DNA of 35,956 bases. Source: a virus. The position numbers were made by a program, and so were the translations under genes. Location of the stretch: the IMG/VR virus record IMGVR_UViG_3300045936_000063, positions 1 to 35,956 of that record; one strand, written 5' to 3'. Positions 24,587 to 35,956 of this stretch are shown here, one piece after another. How positions within the stretch are numbered: position 1 is the first letter of the stretch; every line of letters starts with the position of its first letter. The notes beneath the pieces are model-generated. The model had not been told where the DNA came from, ran no database searches, and saw only the letters and a list, made by a program, of their open reading frames with translations.

Positions 24587-24808
24587 ATGGGCGCGCTCAC
24601 CGCCATCCTGCACAGATCCGCCGGCCAGCTGGTCGACCGGATGCGCGGCGAAGTGGTGGAAGCGCGTGCCACCGAGGCCAGGATGGTCGGTGAGGCATGG
24701 CGCGACCATGTCGCGCTGCCGGCCAACTACTGGCACGACCGCTGGCGGGCCGAGCAGAAGCTGCGATCGGCCGAGCGGTTCCTCGAAGCGTTGGAGGAAA
24801 GGCCATGA
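24587..24808 (+). CDS. Small helical protein
   Basis: This 73-residue Arg/Glu/Ala-rich protein ([41 protein letters not shown]) starts one base after the previous stop and overlaps the collagen-like gene by ATGA. I recognise no family; it has the look of the small coiled-coil proteins found between replication and lysis genes of prophages. Confidence 0.6.
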
Positions 24809-25350
24809 ACGAGATCCTTCGAGATGTCGAGCTGGACGAGCGCGGCCGCTTGCGGGTGCAAGGCAAGGCGGTGGTCACCGAGGCGCCCAGGGACGGCAAA
24901 TATTACGCGCGCCGCAATGCCGCCTGGGCCGACATCGCCAAGCTGCTCGAGGAGGTCGGTGGCGGCGGTGGCGGATCCTCATCAGGCGAAGGCGGCAACG
25001 GCGAGCAAGGGCCGCCTGGACCACAGGGACCGGCAGGGCCAGCCGGGCCACAAGGTGAACCCGGTGAGCCGGGACCGGAAGGGCCAGCTGGTGCCGATGG
25101 TGCGCCTGGCACCCCAGGCGCCAAAGGTGATCCTGGCGCTCAAGGGCCAAAAGGCGATACCGGCCCGCCTGGTGCAGAAGGGCCAGCCGGTCCGCAGGGT
25201 GCGACCGGCAGCACCGGTGCGCCAGGATTGCCCGGCCCGCAAGGACCGCCCGGCGCCGATTTCCCGGATGCGCCTTCGGACGGCAAGATGTACTTCCGCC
25301 AGAACGGCGCCTGGGTCGCGCTGACGACAATCGACCAGATCGGGGCATGA
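24805..25350 (+). CDS. Collagen-like (Gly-X-Y) phage protein
   Basis: This 181-residue protein has three parts: an N-terminal domain (1-50) with [15 protein letters not shown], a Gly/Ser hinge, 29 uninterrupted Gly-X-Y triplets (about 66-152) and a C-terminal segment with [15 protein letters not shown]. The two ends carry the same DGKxYxRxNxAW motif, as if one module flanks the triple helix on both sides. Gly-X-Y tracts form trimers in phage fibres and decorations. It sits away from the tail genes, directly before the endolysin, so its location in the virion is unknown. Confidence 0.85.
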
Positions 25351-26478: not shown

Positions 26479-28080
26479 ATGGGATTGCGCGGCAAAGGAG
26501 CAAGCGAACGGCGGCAGGCAGCCGCAAAGCTCAAGCCGCGAAAACTGCCCTGGAAGCGCAAGGGACTGACCCGCGTCGGCCGCGTCATCGCGTTCCTGGA
26601 ATTTTTGCCGATCACGAAGGGCAAGCTGATCGGCCGCAAACTCAAGCTGTTGCCGAACCAACGGGCCTTCATCGAGGATGTCTATGGCCGCACCGCAAGC
26701 AATCCTGTGAGGATCGGTGTTCTGTCCGAGCCGCGTGGCAACGGCAAGACCGGGCTGGTCGCCGGCCTGGCGCTCTGCCATCTGCTCGGTCCGGAATCGG
26801 AATTCCGCGGCGAGTGCTACTCGGCGGCGATCGACGGCAGGCAAGCGGGACTGATGGCCGACGAGATCGAGGCGGTGATCCTGCAGGTGCCCGAATTCGC
26901 GGCGGCGGTGAACATTCAACGCTGGCCGTATCGGGTGATCACCGTCAGGGACGGTGATGGCCAAGGGTCGAAATACGAGGTGCTGTCGGCCGATGCCCGC
27001 CGCGGCCACGGCCTGGCGCCGTCTTTCTGGGCCTATGACGAACTCGGCCAGGCGAAGGATCGCCGGCTGCTGGACAGCATGCAGACGGCGATGGGCAAGC
27101 GCAAGCGATCACTGGGCCTGGTGATCTCGACGCAGGCTGCCGATGACAATCACCCGCTCTCGGAACTGATCGACGACGGCCTCGCTGCCACCGATCCGTC
27201 AGTCTCGGTGCATTTGTTGAGCGCACCCGATGATGCCGATCCCTTCGATCCGCAGGTCATCCGTTCGGTCAATCCGGCATTCGGCAAGTTTCTCGACGAG
27301 GCCGACGTGATGGCGGAAGCCGAGCGCGCCAGGCGGATGCCGTCGTTCGAGACGGCGTTTCGCAACCTGCGGCTCAATCAGCGGGTGCGGGCCGAAGCGT
27401 CGTTCCTGTCGCCTGATGTATGGAATGCCGGTGCGGCTCCGATCCTGCCCGACATCTTCCGCGACGGACCGGTTTATGGCGGACTGGACCTGTCCACCCG
27501 CACCGATCTGTCGGCTCTGGTGCTGGCGGCCGAGGACGACAACGGCATCGTGCACCTGTTGCCGCGGGTGTGGACGCCGGCCGAAACGCTCGCCGATCGG
27601 GGGATGCGCGACCGGGCGCCTTATGTCGCCTGGGCCGAGGCCGGCCATCTGCTCACCACGCCGGGCAAGGTGCTGGACTATGATTTTCTCGCCGCCGACA
27701 TCGGCTCGCTGTTGTCAGGCATGGAGTTCGGCCGCATCGCCTATGATAGGTGGCGCATCGATGTCATGCGCCAATCGCTGGCGCGGCTGGGTGTCATGGT
27801 CGAAATGATGCCGTTCGGCCAGGGCTTCCAGTCGATGTCGCCGGCGATCGACGTATTCGAGGAACTGGCGATGGCCGGCAGGATCCGCCACGGCGGCCAT
27901 CCACTGCTCACCTGGTGCATGTCGAACGCGATTGTCGAGCGGGATGCGGCAGGCAACCGCAAGCTCAACAAGGCCAAGTCATTCGGCCGCATCGACGCCG
28001 CGGTGGCGGCGGTGATGGCGGTGGCGGCGCTGAAACTGCAGACCGCGGACGACCTCAGCAACGCCGCGATCGTGTTCTGA
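26479..28080 (+). CDS. terL: Terminase large subunit (Terminase_1 type)
   Basis: This 533-residue packaging motor has a Walker A (SEPRGNGKTGL, ~83-93), Walker B-type FWAYDELGQA (~180), LGLVISTQAADDNHPLSELID, and a C-terminal RNase H-like nuclease beginning VYGGLDLSTRTDLSALVL (~332-350). The start is six bases after the HNH stop and has no clear Shine-Dalgarno, suggesting coupled translation. No small subunit gene is seen between the HNH gene and this one, which is unusual. Confidence 0.93.
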   Translation: MGLRGKGASERRQAAAKLKPRKLPWKRKGLTRVGRVIAFLEFLPITKGKLIGRKLKLLPNQRAFIEDVYGRTASNPVRIGVLSEPRGNGKTGLVAGLALCHLLGPESEFRGECYSAAIDGRQAGLMADEIEAVILQVPEFAAAVNIQRWPYRVITVRDGDGQGSKYEVLSADARRGHGLAPSFWAYDELGQAKDRRLLDSMQTAMGKRKRSLGLVISTQAADDNHPLSELIDDGLAATDPSVSVHLLSAPDDADPFDPQVIRSVNPAFGKFLDEADVMAEAERARRMPSFETAFRNLRLNQRVRAEASFLSPDVWNAGAAPILPDIFRDGPVYGGLDLSTRTDLSALVLAAEDDNGIVHLLPRVWTPAETLADRGMRDRAPYVAWAEAGHLLTTPGKVLDYDFLAADIGSLLSGMEFGRIAYDRWRIDVMRQSLARLGVMVEMMPFGQGFQSMSPAIDVFEELAMAGRIRHGGHPLLTWCMSNAIVERDAAGNRKLNKAKSFGRIDAAVAAVMAVAALKLQTADDLSNAAIVF

Positions 28081-28191
28081 ACATTTGTTCGTTGACAATT
28101 TGCAATTTCGCGAGTCCGGGCGTATTTTGCGGCAATTCCGGCGACGGTGGGGCGCAAGCCTGTAAATCCGGCTGAAGGCTTTTTCCTTCGG

Positions 28192-28332
28192 ATGGCAGTG
28201 CCGGTGGCGGACAATCAGACACATCAATCGACCAGAAACCGGCCCGGCAAGACTGAGCGCGTCGACGAGTCGTCCGATCGCAAGGACGACACGCGCGAGA
28301 TCCGCCAGGGGGCCGCGTCATGCCCGACCTGA
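28192..28332 (+). CDS. Possible small protein before the protease-capsid gene
   Basis: The 46-codon frame from ATG 28192 has high GC at third positions over most of its length (VPVADNQTHQ, KDDTREIRQGAA) and overlaps the protease start by 13 bases. A longer version from GTG 28147 exists, but its first codons are AT-rich at third positions. No ribosome site is clear. The rest of the 28081-28319 gap holds TTGACA at 28092 without a matching -10 and a hairpin with a T-rich loop near 28172-28191. It might be non-genic. Confidence 0.3.
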   Translation: MAVPVADNQTHQSTRNRPGKTERVDESSDRKDDTREIRQGAASCPT

Positions 28333-30248
28333 TCTACCGCATCGCAAAACAGTCTGACGCCGATCCGTTCGAATATGTCATGTCCGAGGAATCGGTCGAC
28401 CGCATGGGCGACGTCATCCAGGCCGATGGCTGGGATCTGGCCGACTTCAAGCGCAACCCGATCGGGCTGTTCAACCACCATGCCGATGCCATCATCGGCC
28501 GCTGGGAGAACGTCCGTGTGCTCGGCCGGCAGTTGAGGGCGCGCTTCGTGTTTGCCGAGGAAGGCACCAGCCAGATCGCCGACACCGCGCGCAAGCTGTG
28601 GAACCAGAAGATCCTGCGCGGTGCCTCGGTCGGCTTCCAGGCGGTCAAGCGCGAGCCGCTGCACAAGGACGCCGATCCGCATTTCGGGCCGTTCCGTTAT
28701 CTCAAGCAGCAATTGCTCGAGTGCAGCCTGGTGTCGGTCCCGGCCAATCCGAATGCGCTGCCCGTCATGCGCAGCTATCACCTGCTCCCTGAAATTTCCC
28801 GGCAGATCTTTGGCAAGCCTGCATCACAGGATCGCGCCGTTTCCCGCGTGCCCGCAAAACCTCCCGCATCTTCCGGAGGGAAACCCATGTCTACGCTCGC
28901 AAAGCGCATCGAGGCGGCGCAGTTCGACCTCAACGCATTCCGCGACCAACTTACCGAACTGTCGAAAAAGGACGATCCCGCTGACGACGAGATCGCACTC
29001 ATCGACGAACTCCAGGACAACCAGATCCCGGCCGCCGAGCAGAACTTGGCGCGGCTGGAGCGCATGGAAAAGACGCTCGGCACGCACGCCGTCGAGCGGC
29101 AGGATGGCGATAGCCAGCAGGTCGCCGTGTCGGCCAGTCGTCCGTTCGCGCTGCCGAAAAAGAAGGTCGAGCCGGCCGACTACATGTTCCGCGCTGTTGC
29201 TGCCGGCGTTCGTGCCTTCGGTCGGCAGGAACCGCTGGAGCATTCGCTGCGCGAGATGTATGGCGCCGACGAGGCCACGCAGATCGTGCTGAGGGCCGCC
29301 GTCAATCCGGCGCGGACCGATATCGCCGGTTGGGCCGCGGAACTGGTGCAGACGGTCAACATGGGATTCCTCGACCGGCTGATCGGCGCTTCGCTCTACG
29401 GACCATTGGCAGCGGCGGGATCCCGCTACGATCTCGGCCGCAACGGTTCGATCAAGATTCCGGCCAGAGCCAACACGCCGAAGGCGGCCGGTGCCTGGGT
29501 TGGTGAAGGCGCGCCGAAGCCGGTCAAGCGGATCGGTCTCAGCACGGTTTCGCTGATTCCGCACAAGCTGGCGGTGATCACCACCTTTACCGAGGAGATC
29601 GCCATGTCTTCGGTGCCGGCGATCGAAGGCCTGCTTAGGAAAGCAATGGCCGACGACACATCGGAAGCGCTGGACGGCTACCTGATCGATAACGTTGCCG
29701 CTTCGGCGACCCGGCCAGCCGGCCTGCTCAACGGCGTGACCCCGCTGACGCCGGCGTCCAGCGGCACGACGCTCGAAAAGATCGTCACCGACCTCAATGC
29801 GCTGATCACGCCGATGGAAGCGGCGGGCGGCGGCGGCAATGTGGTGCTGCTGATGAACCCGGCGCAGGCGCGGCGGATCGGTATGAGCCAGACGTCGACA
29901 GGCGACTTTGCCTTTGGCAGTGCAGAGCAGGCGGCTTCGAAGATCGGCGCCACCCGCATCGTCTCGTCGATCACGGTGCCGACCGGCACGGTCATTGCGG
30001 TGGATGCCGACTGGTTCGCCACCGCGACCGGGGATTCGCCGCGCTTTGCCGTGTCCAACGAGGCCACGCTGCACGAGGAGGACACCACGCCGGTGGCGCT
30101 CGGCACCCCTGGCTCGCCGAACGTCGTGGCGGCGCCGATGCGGTCGCTGTTCCAGACCGACAGCGTAGCGATTCGGCTGTCGCTGTTCGTCACATGGGCA
30201 ATGGTACGGCCTGGCATGGTGCAGGTCGTCCCTGGCGTCGGCTGGTGA
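28320..30248 (+). CDS. Fused prohead protease-major capsid protein
   Basis: This 642-residue frame joins two HK97 genes. Residues 1-~155 are the prohead serine protease: NHH at 52-54, RGASVGF with S103, and LECSLVSVPANPNA with E134. After a Pro/Ser linker, residues 190-642 are the capsid: a coiled-coil delta (scaffold) domain at ~191-255, then the HK97 fold with NMGFLDRLIGASLYGPLAAAG and the P/A domains. An in-frame ATG at 28887 with its own GGAGGG ribosome site suggests the capsid is also made alone. The fusion form would bring protease into the procapsid. Confidence 0.92.
   Translation: MPDLIYRIAKQSDADPFEYVMSEESVDRMGDVIQADGWDLADFKRNPIGLFNHHADAIIGRWENVRVLGRQLRARFVFAEEGTSQIADTARKLWNQKILRGASVGFQAVKREPLHKDADPHFGPFRYLKQQLLECSLVSVPANPNALPVMRSYHLLPEISRQIFGKPASQDRAVSRVPAKPPASSGGKPMSTLAKRIEAAQFDLNAFRDQLTELSKKDDPADDEIALIDELQDNQIPAAEQNLARLERMEKTLGTHAVERQDGDSQQVAVSASRPFALPKKKVEPADYMFRAVAAGVRAFGRQEPLEHSLREMYGADEATQIVLRAAVNPARTDIAGWAAELVQTVNMGFLDRLIGASLYGPLAAAGSRYDLGRNGSIKIPARANTPKAAGAWVGEGAPKPVKRIGLSTVSLIPHKLAVITTFTEEIAMSSVPAIEGLLRKAMADDTSEALDGYLIDNVAASATRPAGLLNGVTPLTPASSGTTLEKIVTDLNALITPMEAAGGGGNVVLLMNPAQARRIGMSQTSTGDFAFGSAEQAASKIGATRIVSSITVPTGTVIAVDADWFATATGDSPRFAVSNEATLHEEDTTPVALGTPGSPNVVAAPMRSLFQTDSVAIRLSLFVTWAMVRPGMVQVVPGVGW
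28887..30248 (+). CDS. Major capsid protein from internal start
   Basis: GGAGGG at 28875-28880 lies six bases before ATG 28887, a textbook initiation site inside the longer frame. The product would be 453 residues and begin exactly at the delta domain (STLAKRIEAAQFDLNAFRD). The capsid is needed in hundreds of copies and the protease in few, so separate initiation makes sense. The internal site is seen in the sequence; its use is inferred. Confidence 0.75.
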   Translation: MSTLAKRIEAAQFDLNAFRDQLTELSKKDDPADDEIALIDELQDNQIPAAEQNLARLERMEKTLGTHAVERQDGDSQQVAVSASRPFALPKKKVEPADYMFRAVAAGVRAFGRQEPLEHSLREMYGADEATQIVLRAAVNPARTDIAGWAAELVQTVNMGFLDRLIGASLYGPLAAAGSRYDLGRNGSIKIPARANTPKAAGAWVGEGAPKPVKRIGLSTVSLIPHKLAVITTFTEEIAMSSVPAIEGLLRKAMADDTSEALDGYLIDNVAASATRPAGLLNGVTPLTPASSGTTLEKIVTDLNALITPMEAAGGGGNVVLLMNPAQARRIGMSQTSTGDFAFGSAEQAASKIGATRIVSSITVPTGTVIAVDADWFATATGDSPRFAVSNEATLHEEDTTPVALGTPGSPNVVAAPMRSLFQTDSVAIRLSLFVTWAMVRPGMVQVVPGVGW

Positions 30249-30267
30249 GTTGATTGCCCCAACTGAA

Positions 30268-30294
30268 GGGCTGCGCCTGGCGCAGCCCGCTTTT
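30268..30294 (+). terminator. Factor-independent terminator after the capsid gene
   Basis: GGGCTGCGC (30268-30276) and GCGCAGCCC (30280-30288) form a perfect 9-bp stem with a CTG loop, followed by GCTTTT. It lies 20 bases after the capsid stop. It would stop most transcripts after capsid and lower expression of the portal genes behind it. Confidence 0.8.
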
Positions 30295-30316
30295 CATGCA
30301 AAAGGGAGTCCCCAAT

Positions 30317-30661
30317 ATGGCTGATGAAACCAAGGTCATCGAGGCAATCGCCGGACCCTACAAGGGCCAGCGGCTGACACTGCCGACCGCTGACGCCGAC
30401 CAGGCGATCGATGACGGCTGGGCGAAGGATCCGTTTGAACCGGTGGATCCGGACGCCGAACCGCCGGAATTCGACCAGGAGGCAAATGACGCCATGATCG
30501 TTGCAGCAGAGAAGGCCGCCCGGAAAATGCGCGGCGAGGAAGACGAAGACGCCAAGGGCAAGAAGGCCAAGGCTGCCAAGGACGACGCCGCCGCGAAAGA
30601 CAAGGCGATGGAAGCTGACAAGCCGGCAGCCGGTTATTCGACCCGCAGCACCAAGAAGTGA
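30317..30661 (+). CDS. Hypothetical Lys/Ala-rich protein
   Basis: This 114-residue protein starts at ATG 30317 after AAAGGGAG. The N-terminal half is acidic (VIEAIAGPYKGQRLTLP, DPFEPVDPDAEPPEFD) and the C-terminal half is Lys/Ala-rich and probably disordered or helical (EDEDAKGKKAKAAKDDAAAK). No family recognised. Lying between capsid and portal, it might be a minor head protein, but this is not shown. Confidence 0.6.
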   Translation: MADETKVIEAIAGPYKGQRLTLPTADADQAIDDGWAKDPFEPVDPDAEPPEFDQEANDAMIVAAEKAARKMRGEEDEDAKGKKAKAAKDDAAAKDKAMEADKPAAGYSTRSTKK

Positions 30662-30668
30662 CGGGCCG

Positions 30669-32120
30669 ATGGCGATGCTGGATCCGGTCCGGCGCGCCTT
30701 GCGCCTGTTCGATCGCCGCTCCATCGAAAGCGGCGATCCAGGCGTCGAGGGCCAACCGAAGACTGGGCCTTGGCATATCCTCAACCAGGGCTGGCTGCCG
30801 GAACCGTGGGGCTTCTGGAATTTCTGGCAGATGGATCTCGATCCGCTCAAGGGCGGATCGTCGCCGGTGGTCGAGGCCTGCATCGCCGCCTATGCGCAGA
30901 CCATCGCCATGTGTCCCGGCGAGCACTGGTGGGCGCTGGAGAACGGCGGCCGCGAACGGATCACGACATCGGCGCTATCGAGGATCCTGAAGCGGCCGAA
31001 CGACTACCAGAGCCGGTCCGATTTTCTGCTCGATCTCGCCAGTGATCTCTATCGCCACGGCAACACCTACGCGCTGGCCACCCGCAACGACCGTTACGAG
31101 GTGACGGCGCTGCATCCGTTCGATCCTGCTCAGTCTCGTCCTGTCGTCGGATCGAACGGGGCGATCTTCTACGAGCTCGCCGGCAATACCGTGCTCGAGG
31201 GTGACCGTTCCTTCCTCGGTCAGCAGCGCAGCCGCGCCGGCATCGTGGCACCGGCCCGCGACGTCCTGCACATCAAGCTCGAGCCGGAAGCATCCGCACC
31301 GCTCACCGGCATTCCGCCATCCAGGCACGCCGCCGCCGCGGTGGCCGCGCAGCGCGCCATCAGCGGCCAATTGATCCAGTCTTTCGGCAATCTGAACCGG
31401 CCGGCTGGCGTCATCGAAACCGAGCAGAACATCTCCCAGGACCAGGCCGCCGGCTGGCGGCAACGGTTCAATGATGCATGGAAGGGCATCGACAATCTCG
31501 CCGCCGGGCCGCCGGTGCTGACCAACGGCTTCAAATGGAAGCCTGTTTCGATGTCGGCCAAGGATTCCGCGCTGACCGAGGCTGCGCGGCTTACCCAGGA
31601 CGAGATCTTCGCGGTCTATGGCGTGCCGCCGGCCATCCTCGGCCTCACCGATCGCTCTTCGTTTTCATCGACCGAGGCGCTGATGCAGTTCTGGCTGGCG
31701 CGCGGGCTCGGCTTCGCCATCAACCACATCGAGGTCGGCCTCGATCATTTCTTCGGCCTCAAGGGCTGGCCGGACGAATGGGTCGAGCTCGACACCAGGG
31801 CGCTGCTGCGCGTCGCCTACAAGGACCGCATCGAGGCGCTGGCGCGCGGCGTCCAGGGCGGCATCTACGCGCCCAACGAGGCGCGCAATTCGGAAGACCT
31901 GCCAGATGCGCCGTTTGGCGACGAGCCGCGCGTGCAACAGCAGGTCGTGCCGCTGTCGGCCTGGGATAAGGCAAAACCGGAAACGCCGCGGCCGGAAGCG
32001 CCGGCAGCGCCGCCGCCGGCGCCCGAAGCGGAAGAGCAGCCCGAAGAGGAGGAAGAAGAACGCGATCTACCGGCGGCCTTCACACGGGGAATCGACGATG
32101 CCAACCGAACAGCGGCTTGA
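30669..32120 (+). CDS. HK97-family portal protein
   Basis: This 483-residue protein starts at ATG 30669. It has the portal signatures of the HK97 family: SPVVEACIAAYAQTIAMCP, YQSRSDFLLDLASDLYRHGNTYAL, DVLHIKLEPEAS, and AVYGVPPAILGLTDRSSFSSTEALMQFW. The C-terminus is a Pro/Glu-rich tail. Twelve copies form the DNA entry ring at one capsid vertex. The gene lies after the capsid rather than before the protease, which is not the usual HK97 order. The last 23 bases overlap the next gene. Confidence 0.92.
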   Translation: MAMLDPVRRALRLFDRRSIESGDPGVEGQPKTGPWHILNQGWLPEPWGFWNFWQMDLDPLKGGSSPVVEACIAAYAQTIAMCPGEHWWALENGGRERITTSALSRILKRPNDYQSRSDFLLDLASDLYRHGNTYALATRNDRYEVTALHPFDPAQSRPVVGSNGAIFYELAGNTVLEGDRSFLGQQRSRAGIVAPARDVLHIKLEPEASAPLTGIPPSRHAAAAVAAQRAISGQLIQSFGNLNRPAGVIETEQNISQDQAAGWRQRFNDAWKGIDNLAAGPPVLTNGFKWKPVSMSAKDSALTEAARLTQDEIFAVYGVPPAILGLTDRSSFSSTEALMQFWLARGLGFAINHIEVGLDHFFGLKGWPDEWVELDTRALLRVAYKDRIEALARGVQGGIYAPNEARNSEDLPDAPFGDEPRVQQQVVPLSAWDKAKPETPRPEAPAAPPPAPEAEEQPEEEEEERDLPAAFTRGIDDANRTAA

Positions 32121-32706
32121 GGATCTCGCCTATACGATCGGCCGCCGCTTTGCCGAGGAACGCGAGCGGCTGCTGGCCGATTTTAACCAGCACAAGATGG
32201 CGCTGCAGCTGGAGGTCGAGCGGGCAATCGGCGTGCTGCGCGATCGCCTGGCCGAACTGAAAGACGGCGAACAGGGACCACGCGGCTTTACAGGCGATTC
32301 CGGCGAGGCCGGGCCGCCGGGACCGCCAGGCGAATCGATCAAAGGGGACGCGGGCGAGCCCGGTACGCCGGGGGAGGCGGGACCGCCAGGACGTGATGGC
32401 CATGACGGTGTGGATGGTGCCACCGGCGAGTTGCGTGGCCTCTACGACAAGGCCGAAGCCTATTGCAAGCTCGACCGGGTGTCGTTCAACGGATCCGAGT
32501 GGATCGCCAGGCAGGACGATCCCGGTCCATTGCCCGGCGACGGCTGGATGCTCGGCGCCCAAGGCAAGCGCGGCAAGCCGGGGATCGGCATCCAGGATGT
32601 TTCGGTGAAGGACTACGCATGCGTGCTAGAGCTCACCAACGGCAAGTCGGTCACCGTCGATCTGCGCAGCATGTTCGAACGCTACGAGCAGGAGCGCGGC
32701 GGATGA
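32098..32706 (+). CDS. Collagen-like phage protein with C-terminal carbohydrate-binding-like module
   Basis: This 202-residue protein has an N-terminal coiled coil (LAYTIGRRFAEERERLLADF), then eight Gly-X-Y triplets, an Ile-Lys break and ten more (GEQGPRGFTGDSG to GATGEL). The C-terminus contains the module AYCKLDRVSFNGSEWIAR, then DPGPLPGDGWMLGAQGKRGKPG, which is found on many phage fibres next to collagen-like tracts. It lies right behind portal, so it may form a short trimeric fibre at the head or head-tail junction, perhaps for host adhesion. Confidence 0.85.
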   Translation: MPTEQRLEDLAYTIGRRFAEERERLLADFNQHKMALQLEVERAIGVLRDRLAELKDGEQGPRGFTGDSGEAGPPGPPGESIKGDAGEPGTPGEAGPPGRDGHDGVDGATGELRGLYDKAEAYCKLDRVSFNGSEWIARQDDPGPLPGDGWMLGAQGKRGKPGIGIQDVSVKDYACVLELTNGKSVTVDLRSMFERYEQERGG

Positions 32707-33868: not shown

Positions 33869-34278
33869 TGGCGACGCCTGAACTGGAAATGCAGGGCGCG
33901 ATCGTGGCGCGGCTGAAGGCGGATCCGGCAGTGGCCGCCCTGGTCAATGGCCGGATCTACGACAGCGTGCCGGCATCAGCGGCATTTCCCTATGTCACCA
34001 TCGGGCCGGTCGACAGCGTCGACGACACGGCCGACTGCATCGCCGGCCTGCTGGTGGCGCAGCAGATCGATTGCTGGTCGCGCGGCGTCGGCTATCCCGA
34101 AGTCAAGAAGATCGTCGATGCGGTGCGCGCCGCGCTGCACGACCGCGAGCAGGACATGCCGCTTGCCACCAACGGCATGGCCTATTTCGAGCACCGCAAC
34201 TCTCGCATTGTCCGTGACCCTGACGGCCTCACAAGTCACGGCATCCTGTCGTTCGAGGCCGCCATTGAGCGACGTTAA
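33868..34278 (+). CDS. Tail terminator protein (DUF3168-like), complete copy
   Basis: The full 136-residue form of the protein cut at the window start. It opens with ELEMQGAIVARLKADPAVAALVNGRIYD and continues through PASAAFPYVTIGPVDSV, the family core, to the end shared with the truncated copy. Bases 33972-34091 are identical to 1-120. It caps the tail tube. Its TAA overlaps the stop of the convergent HNH-like gene in GTTAAC. Confidence 0.88.
   Translation: MATPELEMQGAIVARLKADPAVAALVNGRIYDSVPASAAFPYVTIGPVDSVDDTADCIAGLLVAQQIDCWSRGVGYPEVKKIVDAVRAALHDREQDMPLATNGMAYFEHRNSRIVRDPDGLTSHGILSFEAAIERR
33972..34091 (+). repeat. Second copy of the left exact end-repeat
   Basis: Identical to 1-120; after this the two alleles diverge through the rest of the tail terminator, the HNH-like gene, the tail tube and the chaperone. 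See 1-120. Confidence 0.85.
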
Positions 34279-34703
34279 CTGGAGGAATTCAGTTGCAGGC
34301 GAAGTGCTTTTATCCGCTGCCGATGCTGCCGCAAACGGACGGTGTGATAGTCATTGATCTTCTTTCTGCGTTCGGGATCCGCATAGCGCCGATCATCGCA
34401 AACGCGCTGAATTTCGTAGCGCTGGGCAAGATGGTTTGCGCGCCAGGCCTTCCATGTTTCGGCGCGCCTCGCTTTGGCACATGCTTCGCAATAATAGGGC
34501 CGGCTGCGGCTGCGTCTGGCCGTATCCGATCCGCATCGCTCGCACGCTATCTGATCACCGAGTTTAGGCAAGCCGCGCTCGGCGCGCTTGCGGTGGTGTT
34601 CGCGCAACTCGAATACGCGACGGCATTCGCGGCTGCAGTATTTCGACGGACCATGCCGCCGTTTCTCGAACTCTTTCCCGCAAATCACACACGTAACCAG
34701 CAT
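34275..34703 (-). CDS. Truncated HNH-like protein, Cys clusters only (allele B)
   Basis: The 142-residue product is homologous to residues 1-~90 of the protein at 304-999, with all eight cluster cysteines present (C5, C8, C23, C27, C54, C57, C72, C75). It then diverges (KAWRANHLAQRYEIQRVCDDRRY) and ends before any HNH core. It therefore looks like a DNA-binding remnant or a variant without nuclease activity. It occupies exactly the same intergenic slot. Confidence 0.75.
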   Translation of the reverse strand: MLVTCVICGKEFEKRRHGPSKYCSRECRRVFELREHHRKRAERGLPKLGDQIACERCGSDTARRSRSRPYYCEACAKARRAETWKAWRANHLAQRYEIQRVCDDRRYADPERRKKINDYHTVRLRQHRQRIKALRLQLNSSS

Positions 34704-34720
34704 TAGGAAAGGATACTACA

Positions 34721-35170
34721 ATGGCGCAACCTACGACAGCCAAATTCGGAAAGATGCTGATCGAGATCGGCGACAGTGCCGTGCCGCCGGTTTATTCGGC
34801 ACCGTGCGGCTTTACGTCGAAGGGCTGCACGATCTCCAAGAACCTCCAGGAGATCAACATTCCCGATTGCGACAACCCGGATGATCCGATCTGGGTCGGC
34901 CGCGACGTGCAGAGCCAGTCCTGCACCATTACCGGCGACGGCGTGGCAGCGGCCGAGTCAGTTCCTGACTGGGACGATGCCGCCATGTCCACGGACAGCA
35001 TTCCGATGCGTGTGACGATCGACTTCGAGGCGGTCGGATCCAAGGTGATCGAAGGCAAGTTCCACGTCGACAGCGAGGCCTTCGCCGCGGATGCCGGCGG
35101 CCGTGTCACGCTGGCGATCAACGCCACGTCTGACGGGCCTGTGACCGCCACCTGGACGGCCGGACCATGA
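34721..35170 (+). CDS. Major tail tube protein (allele B)
   Basis: The 149-residue homologue of the protein at 1030-1476, starting with ATG. Long blocks are shared and many single residues differ, so this is an orthologous allele, not a copy made recently. AGGAAAGGA precedes the start. Confidence 0.75.
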   Translation: MAQPTTAKFGKMLIEIGDSAVPPVYSAPCGFTSKGCTISKNLQEINIPDCDNPDDPIWVGRDVQSQSCTITGDGVAAAESVPDWDDAAMSTDSIPMRVTIDFEAVGSKVIEGKFHVDSEAFAADAGGRVTLAINATSDGPVTATWTAGP

Positions 35171-35589
35171 GCCGTATCGGTCGCATAACGGCGCTGTTCG
35201 GCGGCGAGGAATGCGACTTCCGGCTGGCATGGGGCGAACTGGTCGAGTTGCAGGAAAAGCGCGATGCCGGGCCTGCTGTAGTGCTCGCCCGCCTGTCGCT
35301 CGGCCAATGGCACCTTCAGGACGTGATCGAGACGATCCGACTCGGCCTGATCGGAGCCGGCATGGATGCCGCACAGGCGGCCAAGCTGGTGCGCACCAAC
35401 GTCGAGCAGAAGCCGTGGGATCTCGGCGGCGAGAACGGGCTTGTTGTCCTGGCGGTCAGGATCCTCGCCGCCGCCACGCACGGCGTCGAGGATGAGCCGG
35501 TGGGAAAAGCGGGGGAGGGTCGGAACGGGTCGACGACCTTCCCAACGGAAAGATCCGTTTCGGAGCCGTCCTTGGCAACGCCGTCCTGA
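35167..35589 (+). CDS. Tail assembly chaperone, GTA gp10-like (allele B)
   Basis: This 140-residue homologue of the protein at 1473-1895 shares the FRLAWGELVELQEKRDAGP, LSLGQWHLQDV and WDLGGENGLVVLAV blocks. Start overlaps the tail tube stop by ATGA. The slippery heptamer is at 35502-35508. The zero-frame tail after it has diverged from allele A, whereas the -1 frame has not. Confidence 0.82.
   Translation: MSRIGRITALFGGEECDFRLAWGELVELQEKRDAGPAVVLARLSLGQWHLQDVIETIRLGLIGAGMDAAQAAKLVRTNVEQKPWDLGGENGLVVLAVRILAAATHGVEDEPVGKAGEGRNGSTTFPTERSVSEPSLATPS
35502..35508 (+). promoter_or_regulatory. Programmed -1 frameshift site (allele B)
   Basis: GGGAAAA with zero-frame codons GGA AAA, at the same codon number (114) as in allele A. 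The -1 frame stays open from 35508 to the stop at 35795, giving a ~209-residue fusion product. Confidence 0.85.
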
Positions 35590-35795
35590 TGGGCATCTCG
35601 CCGAACGACTGGCGCAAGATGAGCATGTGGGAAATGGCTGCGGCGAGCGAGCGGTGGGTCGCGGCGCACGACACCGAAAGCCACGACGACCGCAAGGGCA
35701 AGCTGGACGAGGCCGAGAAGGACGAGATCTGGGCCTGGATGCAACAGAAGGGCGCCACCGGCAGGAAGCGAAGCAATGGTACAGGGACTGGATAA
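35589..35795 (+). CDS. Second tail chaperone segment expressed by frameshift (allele B)
   Basis: The 68-residue segment (MSMWEMAAASERWVAAHDTESHDD) is homologous to 1895-2134 but has a shorter C-terminus. It is open upstream to the slippery site, where it encodes SERVDDLPNGKIRFG as in allele A. Its ATG overlaps the zero-frame stop (TGATG) without a ribosome site, so expression is probably by frameshifting. Confidence 0.75.
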   Translation: MGISPNDWRKMSMWEMAAASERWVAAHDTESHDDRKGKLDEAEKDEIWAWMQQKGATGRKRSNGTGTG

Positions 35796-35956
35796 GGTCA
35801 GGCGGCGGCTGGTCGATGAGATACCCGCGCGTGTCCGCGCCGAAATGGAACGCGCCATGCTGGAATCGGCCGAGCTGATCGTGCGCGGCGCTCAGATGCG
35901 GGTGCCGGTCGACGAGGGCGAGGTGCGCGATTCCATCCGCCATCACGGCGTCAAGG
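35776..35956 (+). CDS. HK97 gp10-like tail protein, 3' truncated (allele B)
   Basis: The first 60 codons of the second copy of the gene at 2091-2477. It starts at ATG 35776 after GGAAGCGAAG, differs from allele A over its first 20 codons, then is identical over the last 121 bases of the window. The break is the window end, not a mutation. Confidence 0.85.
   Translation, partial: MVQGLDKVRRRLVDEIPARVRAEMERAMLESAELIVRGAQMRVPVDEGEVRDSIRHHGVK
35836..35956 (+). repeat. Second copy of the right exact anchor repeat
   Basis: Identical to 2151-2271 over 121 bases and ending exactly at the window end. See 2151-2271. Confidence 0.85.

Follow-up and report, generated by a model that had tools for sequence, protein, structure and literature searches.

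Architecture of the protease-capsid gene

The window analysed here is the complete stretch of 35,956 nucleotides of the viral record IMGVR_UViG_3300045936_000063 in IMG/VR. On its plus strand, an open reading frame (ORF) at 28320-30248 encodes a protein of 642 amino acids with no stop within the frame, whose successive parts are a prohead protease of the S78 family, a linker predicted to be disordered, a delta domain made of helices and a capsid with the HK97 fold. An in-frame ATG with its own Shine-Dalgarno sequence is located at the junction of the protease and capsid parts, and its possible use as a second translation start is evaluated here. The features of the gene are:

28320..30248, + strand: full-length protease-capsid ORF, 642 amino acids, 68.9 kDa (open frame, Pfam)
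28307..28312, + strand: AGGGGG, Shine-Dalgarno-like stretch of the full-length start (sequence; pairing energy -9.4 kcal/mol)
28395..28757, + strand: Peptidase_S78 domain, residues 26-146 (Pfam; H53, S103 and E134 invariant)
28779..28886, + strand: hypervariable linker, residues 154-189, disordered from 165 (alignment, AlphaFold2 model)
28860..28879, + strand: predicted RNA hairpin CCUCC-N10-GGAGG over the internal Shine-Dalgarno sequence (support comparative)
28875..28880, + strand: GGAGGG, internal Shine-Dalgarno sequence (sequence, pairing energy)
28887..28889, + strand: internal start codon ATG, Met190 (sequence, alignment)
28887..30248, + strand: putative short product, delta and capsid, 453 amino acids, 47.7 kDa (predicted from sequence)
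28896..29096, + strand: delta (scaffold-like) domain, helices 193-215 and 222-259 (AlphaFold2 model)
29094..29150, + strand: second disordered stretch, residues 259-277, presumed cleavage region (AlphaFold2 model)
29403..29969, + strand: Phage_capsid (HK97 fold) match, residues 362-550 (Pfam, Foldseek)

An initial annotation, made from the DNA letters alone, had described a frame that reads from the protease into the capsid. This is borne out by the uninterrupted frame and by matches above the Pfam cut-offs to Peptidase_S78 (PF04586, residues 26-146, 29.1 bits, cut-off 21) and Phage_capsid (PF05065, residues 362-550, 52.1 bits, cut-off 24.2); the profile phrog_617 'major head protein' spans residues 4-640. 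Residues H53, S103 and E134 are invariant across an alignment of 70 sequences and correspond to H65, S114 and E141 of HK97 gp4, which we take to be the catalytic residues. Both the Pfam score and the aligned His, Ser and Glu thus assign the N-terminal part to the S78 proteases. The predicted masses of the full-length product and of the product starting at Met190, 68.9 and 47.7 kDa, agree with the earlier estimates of ~69 and ~48 kDa.

In an AlphaFold2 model calculated from the 70-sequence alignment (mean predicted local distance difference test score, pLDDT, 80.9; predicted template modelling score 0.53), the protease is ordered, residues 165-190 have a pLDDT below 50, and two delta helices at 193-215 and 222-259 are followed by a low-confidence stretch (259-277) and then the capsid. 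The model thus places Met190 where the linker gives way to the delta helix, which fits the earlier claim that the internal start lies exactly at the delta domain. The linker can be described as rich in Pro and Ser, though only mildly so, as these make up 11 of its 36 residues (154-189). Foldseek retrieved the capsids of D3, phiXacJX1 and HK97 as top matches of the capsid part; PF05065 together with the fold, and N-terminal helices followed by a flexible stretch, identify an HK97-fold capsid with a delta domain, and residues 259-277 are the presumed maturation cleavage region. A sequence search of the PDB gave weak matches at most (best E 0.041), and the capsid of a Stx2 phage from the literature, which belongs to another family, was dropped as a comparison.

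Conservation of the junction start among relatives

The internal signal is located as initially annotated, with GGAGGG at 28875-28880, six bases and the ATG of residue 190 at 28887-28889. Its calculated pairing energy with the anti-Shine-Dalgarno sequence of the 16S tail is -10.6 kcal/mol (rank 5 of 656 in-frame codons), compared with -9.4 kcal/mol for the full-length start. GGAGG-N7-ATG occurs five times in the window where 1.53 occurrences are expected, so the motif by itself proves little, and with an ordinary fold as well, the idea that it is striking within the window alone was rejected. The window by itself is weak evidence, and the case is a comparative one.

Relatives were collected from viral contigs, in three sets, and from genomes. 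A scan of genome contigs with the window protein alone found no relative, while the same scan with the alignment found five loci; the 70 aligned sequences are 33-71% identical to the window protein. In the first set, the fused frame is open in 90 of 91 loci including the window (L015 is broken), and the junction codon is ATG in 88 and GTG in one (L090) of the 89 loci placed. Here, a Met-led pattern placed 85 junctions and four were placed by hand; three were shifted to a nearby downstream Met. L043, L015 (which does have a junction ATG) and the cut loci L016 and L017 were left aside. None of the 76 loci of the second set has a broken frame, and of its 75 readable junctions (L109 left aside) 74 are ATG and one is GTG (L107). 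The third set comprises 30 newly collected loci, the remainder being cut or lying on contigs of the earlier sets; the frame is broken in L230, and L225 is a cut locus. The DNA was inspected in 24 of them: 21 junctions were read, with 20 ATG and one GTG (L224), and of three further ones L218 and L219 have ATG and L216 resembles L224. The sets overlap to some extent, as the first includes loci resembling the second (e.g. L075, L079, L086, L089), some contigs are present under two identifiers (e.g. L088/L100, L075/L111), and L090 and L107 apparently have identical sequences.

As the junctions had partly been picked via their Met, a selection-free test was made on the alignment, in which the rows with a Met within the 14 residues before each position were counted, independently of the junction choices. 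A Met was found in 70/70 rows at the junction only; the runner-up place reached 66, and the chance per row is 0.31. Few residues of the region vary as much as those surrounding this Met. Where the junction codon is not ATG, in L090, L107, L224 and the actinophage PensacolaC28, it is GTG, a Val codon that can serve as a start.

The Shine-Dalgarno pairing is also stronger at the junction than elsewhere, with a mean of -4.04 (80 first-set loci, at most 95% alike) versus -2.38 at 1164 other in-frame Met codons, and -3.82 (57 loci) versus -2.22 (871 codons) in the second set. When the RNA of the first set was compared with synonymous shuffles, the segment starting at -12 was the least folded, its mean z of 0.81 being the highest of 181 segments (maximum away from the junction 0.53). 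For the second set the result was mixed: the segment at -36 was highest with 1.04, that at 0 reached 0.62, and the background maximum was 0.87. In a pairwise comparison, L008 and L010 share 83-100% identity from ~90 bases before the internal ATG onward and 23-83% in the blocks upstream. Judged from this sequence pattern, the capsid half recombines as a unit that carries its own start region.

Across the relatives, the linker also holds a repeated motif, F-G-K/E-x-A and G-K/E-x-A, represented in the window by residues 164-168 and 176-179 (28809-28823 and 28845-28856). It could be the self-cleavage site of the tethered protease.

A predicted hairpin over the internal Shine-Dalgarno sequence

In the window, CCUCC at 28860-28864 is able to pair with GGAGG at 28875-28879, which would enclose the internal Shine-Dalgarno sequence in a small hairpin. 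In the first set of relatives, the mean stem-score z peaks in the 27 bases preceding the ATG, where it is the highest of all offsets within 420 bases (1.55, background 0.15, standard deviation 0.25). The score falls when arms are exchanged between loci (48 loci, less than 75% alike); of 600 splits, split -14 gave the highest z, 7.0, against a background maximum of 4.67. Considering 24 distinct hairpins that were anchored only by their outer TCG/CGA, 53 of the 72 inner pairs are formed, compared with 33.5 (standard deviation 3.7) after shuffling, and none of 10,000 shuffles reached 53. A good hairpin is present in 63 of 80 loci, and it contains 245 of their 268 Shine-Dalgarno-pairing bases, of which 172 belong to the arms and 73 to the loop. 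The first set is the only one in which such a conserved structure over the Shine-Dalgarno sequence was found. We regard it as a lineage-specific control element which probably has a role in coupling. A covarying hairpin at this place in one lineage appears to be new.

Other elements may exist nearby. Many loci (e.g. L021 and L104) have a second short stem ~39-46 bases upstream of the internal ATG, GGCAAGCCTGCC, encoding the peptide GKPA; in some loci it reads GCCAAGCCAGGC, encoding AKPG, so that the stem is retained while Gly and Ala are exchanged. This might be a further RNA element or a peptide motif. Arm swapping in the first set also gave z values above 4 at splits -127 and +25 from the internal ATG, for which further mRNA structure or an effect of relatedness are both possible, and in the second set the top lay at +27 to +30.

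Junction starts in other fusion families and comparison with known systems

Sixteen fusion genes of named phages were inspected (Sourignavong, Root, Atraxa, Adaia, Emperor, GMA5, Schiebs, Yavru, Berka, PensacolaC28, RRH1, Nocturne116, JLK-2012, PAJU2, RHph_X2_26 and FSL SP-016). With junctions chosen by eye, a start codon with a pairing energy of -4.0 kcal/mol or better was found at 15 of 16, that of PensacolaC28 being GTG. The junction ranks 3 of 623 in-frame codons in GMA5, 5 of 637 in PAJU2, 9 of 626 in RHph_X2_26 and 214 of 615 in JLK-2012. The predicted internal start is codon 197 in PAJU2, 160 in Sourignavong and 145 in Nocturne116. An automatic junction rule was noisy, placing 13 of the 16 junctions and several of them wrongly; with it, -4.0 or better was reached at 9 of 13 junctions versus 28 of 89 other ATG codons (p 0.02). 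Immediately upstream of the start, which is ATG in GMA5 (L183) and GTG in PensacolaC28 (L187), these two diverged actinophages have the stretch AGGAGGACACCAC in common.

Split homologues were found in SOVA965 and phiKM1. SOVA965 is related to PAJU2 but has protease and capsid in separate genes. Its capsid gene starts with MKTYAEQIADLEATR, which corresponds to PAJU2 from the internal Met197 onward (MKTTAEQIAEFEATR); the annotation divides this capsid into two pieces that overlap, a break peculiar to the SOVA965 record.

The closest parallel in organization is the C/Nu3 gene of phage lambda, in which one frame with one stop encodes a protease first and an assembly product from an internal in-frame start. 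In the lambda record, nu3 is annotated inside C with the same end and a start at codon 239; a Shine-Dalgarno scan of C gives codon 309 as the best site, and the real Nu3 starts near this codon. The window gene shares the internal in-frame start and the common stop, but its inner product is not a scaffold alone, as in lambda, since the capsid domain is included besides the scaffold domain, and the lambda protease belongs to the S49 family, unlike the S78 protease here. On this comparison of sequences, we read the gene as working like C/Nu3 but outside that gene family, with the capsid as the inner product. In herpesviruses (UL26/UL26.5), too, an assembly protein is produced by itself while some of its copies carry a tethered protease; there, the inner product is a scaffold and comes from its own transcript.

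Protease-capsid fusion itself is already known. Fusions are noted in Nocturne116 and PAJU2, the latter described as possibly autocleaved (PMC8306868), in thaumarchaeal proviruses (PMC6563490), in MD8-like phages (PMC8508860) and in the Arthrobacter clusters AM, AU and AN by Klyczek et al., where the available text does not mention an internal start (PMC5513430). The PAJU2 gene shares with the window gene the domain order, the gene order (terminase, fusion, portal) and a junction Met behind AGGAGG, but the proteins are only ~25% identical. The actinophage fusions (Arthrobacter clusters AM, AU and AN, RRH1 and Gordonia) also have the protease fused ahead of the capsid, with a junction start and Shine-Dalgarno sequence in 10 of 11 inspected, but belong to other sequence families. 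The gene of MD8 and F10 combines protease, scaffold and capsid functions in one frame, with a ClpP-like protease model in place of S78. It has an ATG at codon 220 with -6.9 kcal/mol, just past the published protease region (PMC8508860), and a stronger site at codon 185 inside that region, so this case is less clean. HK97 has equivalent protease and delta-capsid domains in two separate genes, gp4 and gp5. The open-access literature, as far as its text was available, yielded no mention of an internal capsid start for such fusions, and reading a dual start as common to protease-capsid fusion genes appears to be new.

Genomic context

Around the fusion gene (26479-32120), the order is a terminase-like ORF, the protease-capsid gene and a portal-like ORF, the flanking genes being named by eye. 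The portal also follows the fusion in PAJU2 and FSL SP-016, unlike in HK97. Two ORFs contain long collagen-like Gly-X-Y repeats (24697-25350 and 31906-32706). The two end regions of the window are copies that have diverged, with identities of 88.9% for 1-306 versus 33972-34277 and 77.6% for 773-2271 versus 34477-35956; either a duplication followed by divergence or the joining of two related phages would fit.

Proposed mechanism and alternative explanations

We propose that the window carries a nested in-frame two-product gene, encoding a protease-delta-capsid fusion and a free delta-capsid protein that co-assemble, with a hairpin coupling their translation in the window's relatives; from the sequence comparisons we give this reading a probability of roughly three in four. 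Ribosomes starting at 28320 would make the fusion and those starting at 28887 the usual HK97-type capsid precursor, consisting of delta and capsid. Both products would assemble together via their common delta and capsid parts, so that every shell would receive some tethered protease, which would then cut between delta and capsid and thereby free itself. In the first-set relatives, the small hairpin probably ties initiation at the capsid start to translation of the upstream protease part. HK97 has ~60 proteases per 415 capsid proteins and D3 ~90 per 540 (PMC12749128). As protease is scarce relative to capsid in both, unequal dosing is plausible here as well, and we infer that both starts are used with the short product in excess.

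The initial annotation had reached a similar interpretation, a few protease-capsid fusions among many free capsids. Its core is likely right: the internal start is supported by the Met in all 70 rows, by the GTG exceptions and by the other families. A proportion of few fusions to many free capsids is plausible.

Several observations weigh against the two-product reading. Strong Shine-Dalgarno matches are present at both starts of the window gene, and because both are strong and a predicted hairpin contains the internal match, the ratio of the products cannot be read from the sequence. Among 241 codon offsets, the junction ranks only 7th for the first set, and in the second set offset +1 is 5th; in L206, L207, L210, L218, L219 and L234 the pairing is just -0.1 to -0.5. 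Gordonia phage Emperor has no such junction start on inspection by eye. The fold of the window hairpin is by itself ordinary (z 0.21), and the stability of the first-set hairpins is not clearly above that of synonymous shuffles (lowest mean z near the start -0.45, background near -0.20), so that synonymous shuffling was rejected as proof of the hairpin. The second set shows no hairpin signal, and the hairpin was therefore rejected as a general feature. Finally, the loci are related, so the p-values and z-scores overstate their independence.

Among the alternatives, the gene could encode a single polyprotein from which the protease cleaves itself, so that every capsid subunit starts out attached to a protease. 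The PAJU2 fusion is presented in this way in print (PMC8306868), and the full-length start has a good Shine-Dalgarno sequence. We consider a polyprotein alone unlikely, because it leaves unexplained why a start codon is kept in a hypervariable linker, why GTG is the codon that replaces it and why junction Shine-Dalgarno signals occur in other fusion families. It also implies a protease dose of 1:1 against ~1:6 to 1:7 in HK97 and D3 (PMC12749128), and thus six to seven times more protease. That the start is a fossil, an old capsid start codon persisting unused after the genes were fused, agrees with the existence of split homologues (SOVA965, phiKM1) but is very improbable, as the Met is kept in 70/70 sequences despite divergence at one to two thirds of the residues while neighbouring linker residues vary.

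Both products could also be made with the fusion as the main shell protein and the short form being minor or tuning assembly. The position of the internal Shine-Dalgarno sequence within a predicted hairpin, and its weakness in several relatives, would suit this arrangement. We judge it to be quite unlikely, since in the window the internal match exceeds the full-length one (-10.6 versus -9.4 kcal/mol) and HK97-like shells hold far fewer proteases than capsids (PMC12749128). The hairpin, and only the hairpin, could instead mark a DNA-level recombination boundary between the protease and capsid modules without a role in translation, in line with the sharp mosaic break in the linker of L008 versus L010. 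This too has a low probability: the break lies upstream of the hairpin, the hairpin encloses nearly all the Shine-Dalgarno-pairing bases, and its arms covary as sequences diverge, which a recombination site would not need.

A broader version of the two-product reading is more tentative, and we hold it to be somewhat short of an even chance. It would make most protease-capsid 'fusion' genes of tailed phages, in several unrelated families, nested dual-start genes. In the lineage of the window, a fast-evolving hairpin of conserved structure would couple capsid initiation to the passage of ribosomes, so that one mRNA element sets the dose.

A fused gene raises a dosing problem, as shells need many capsid proteins and, in HK97 and D3, far fewer proteases; retaining an internal start resolves this with a single gene. 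The dual start would shift the annotation of such genes from 'fusion protein' to two products, and it predicts N-terminal peptides that can be sought in existing mass-spectrometry data of virions and procapsids. The covarying hairpin suggests that, in one lineage, the ratio of the products is itself regulated.
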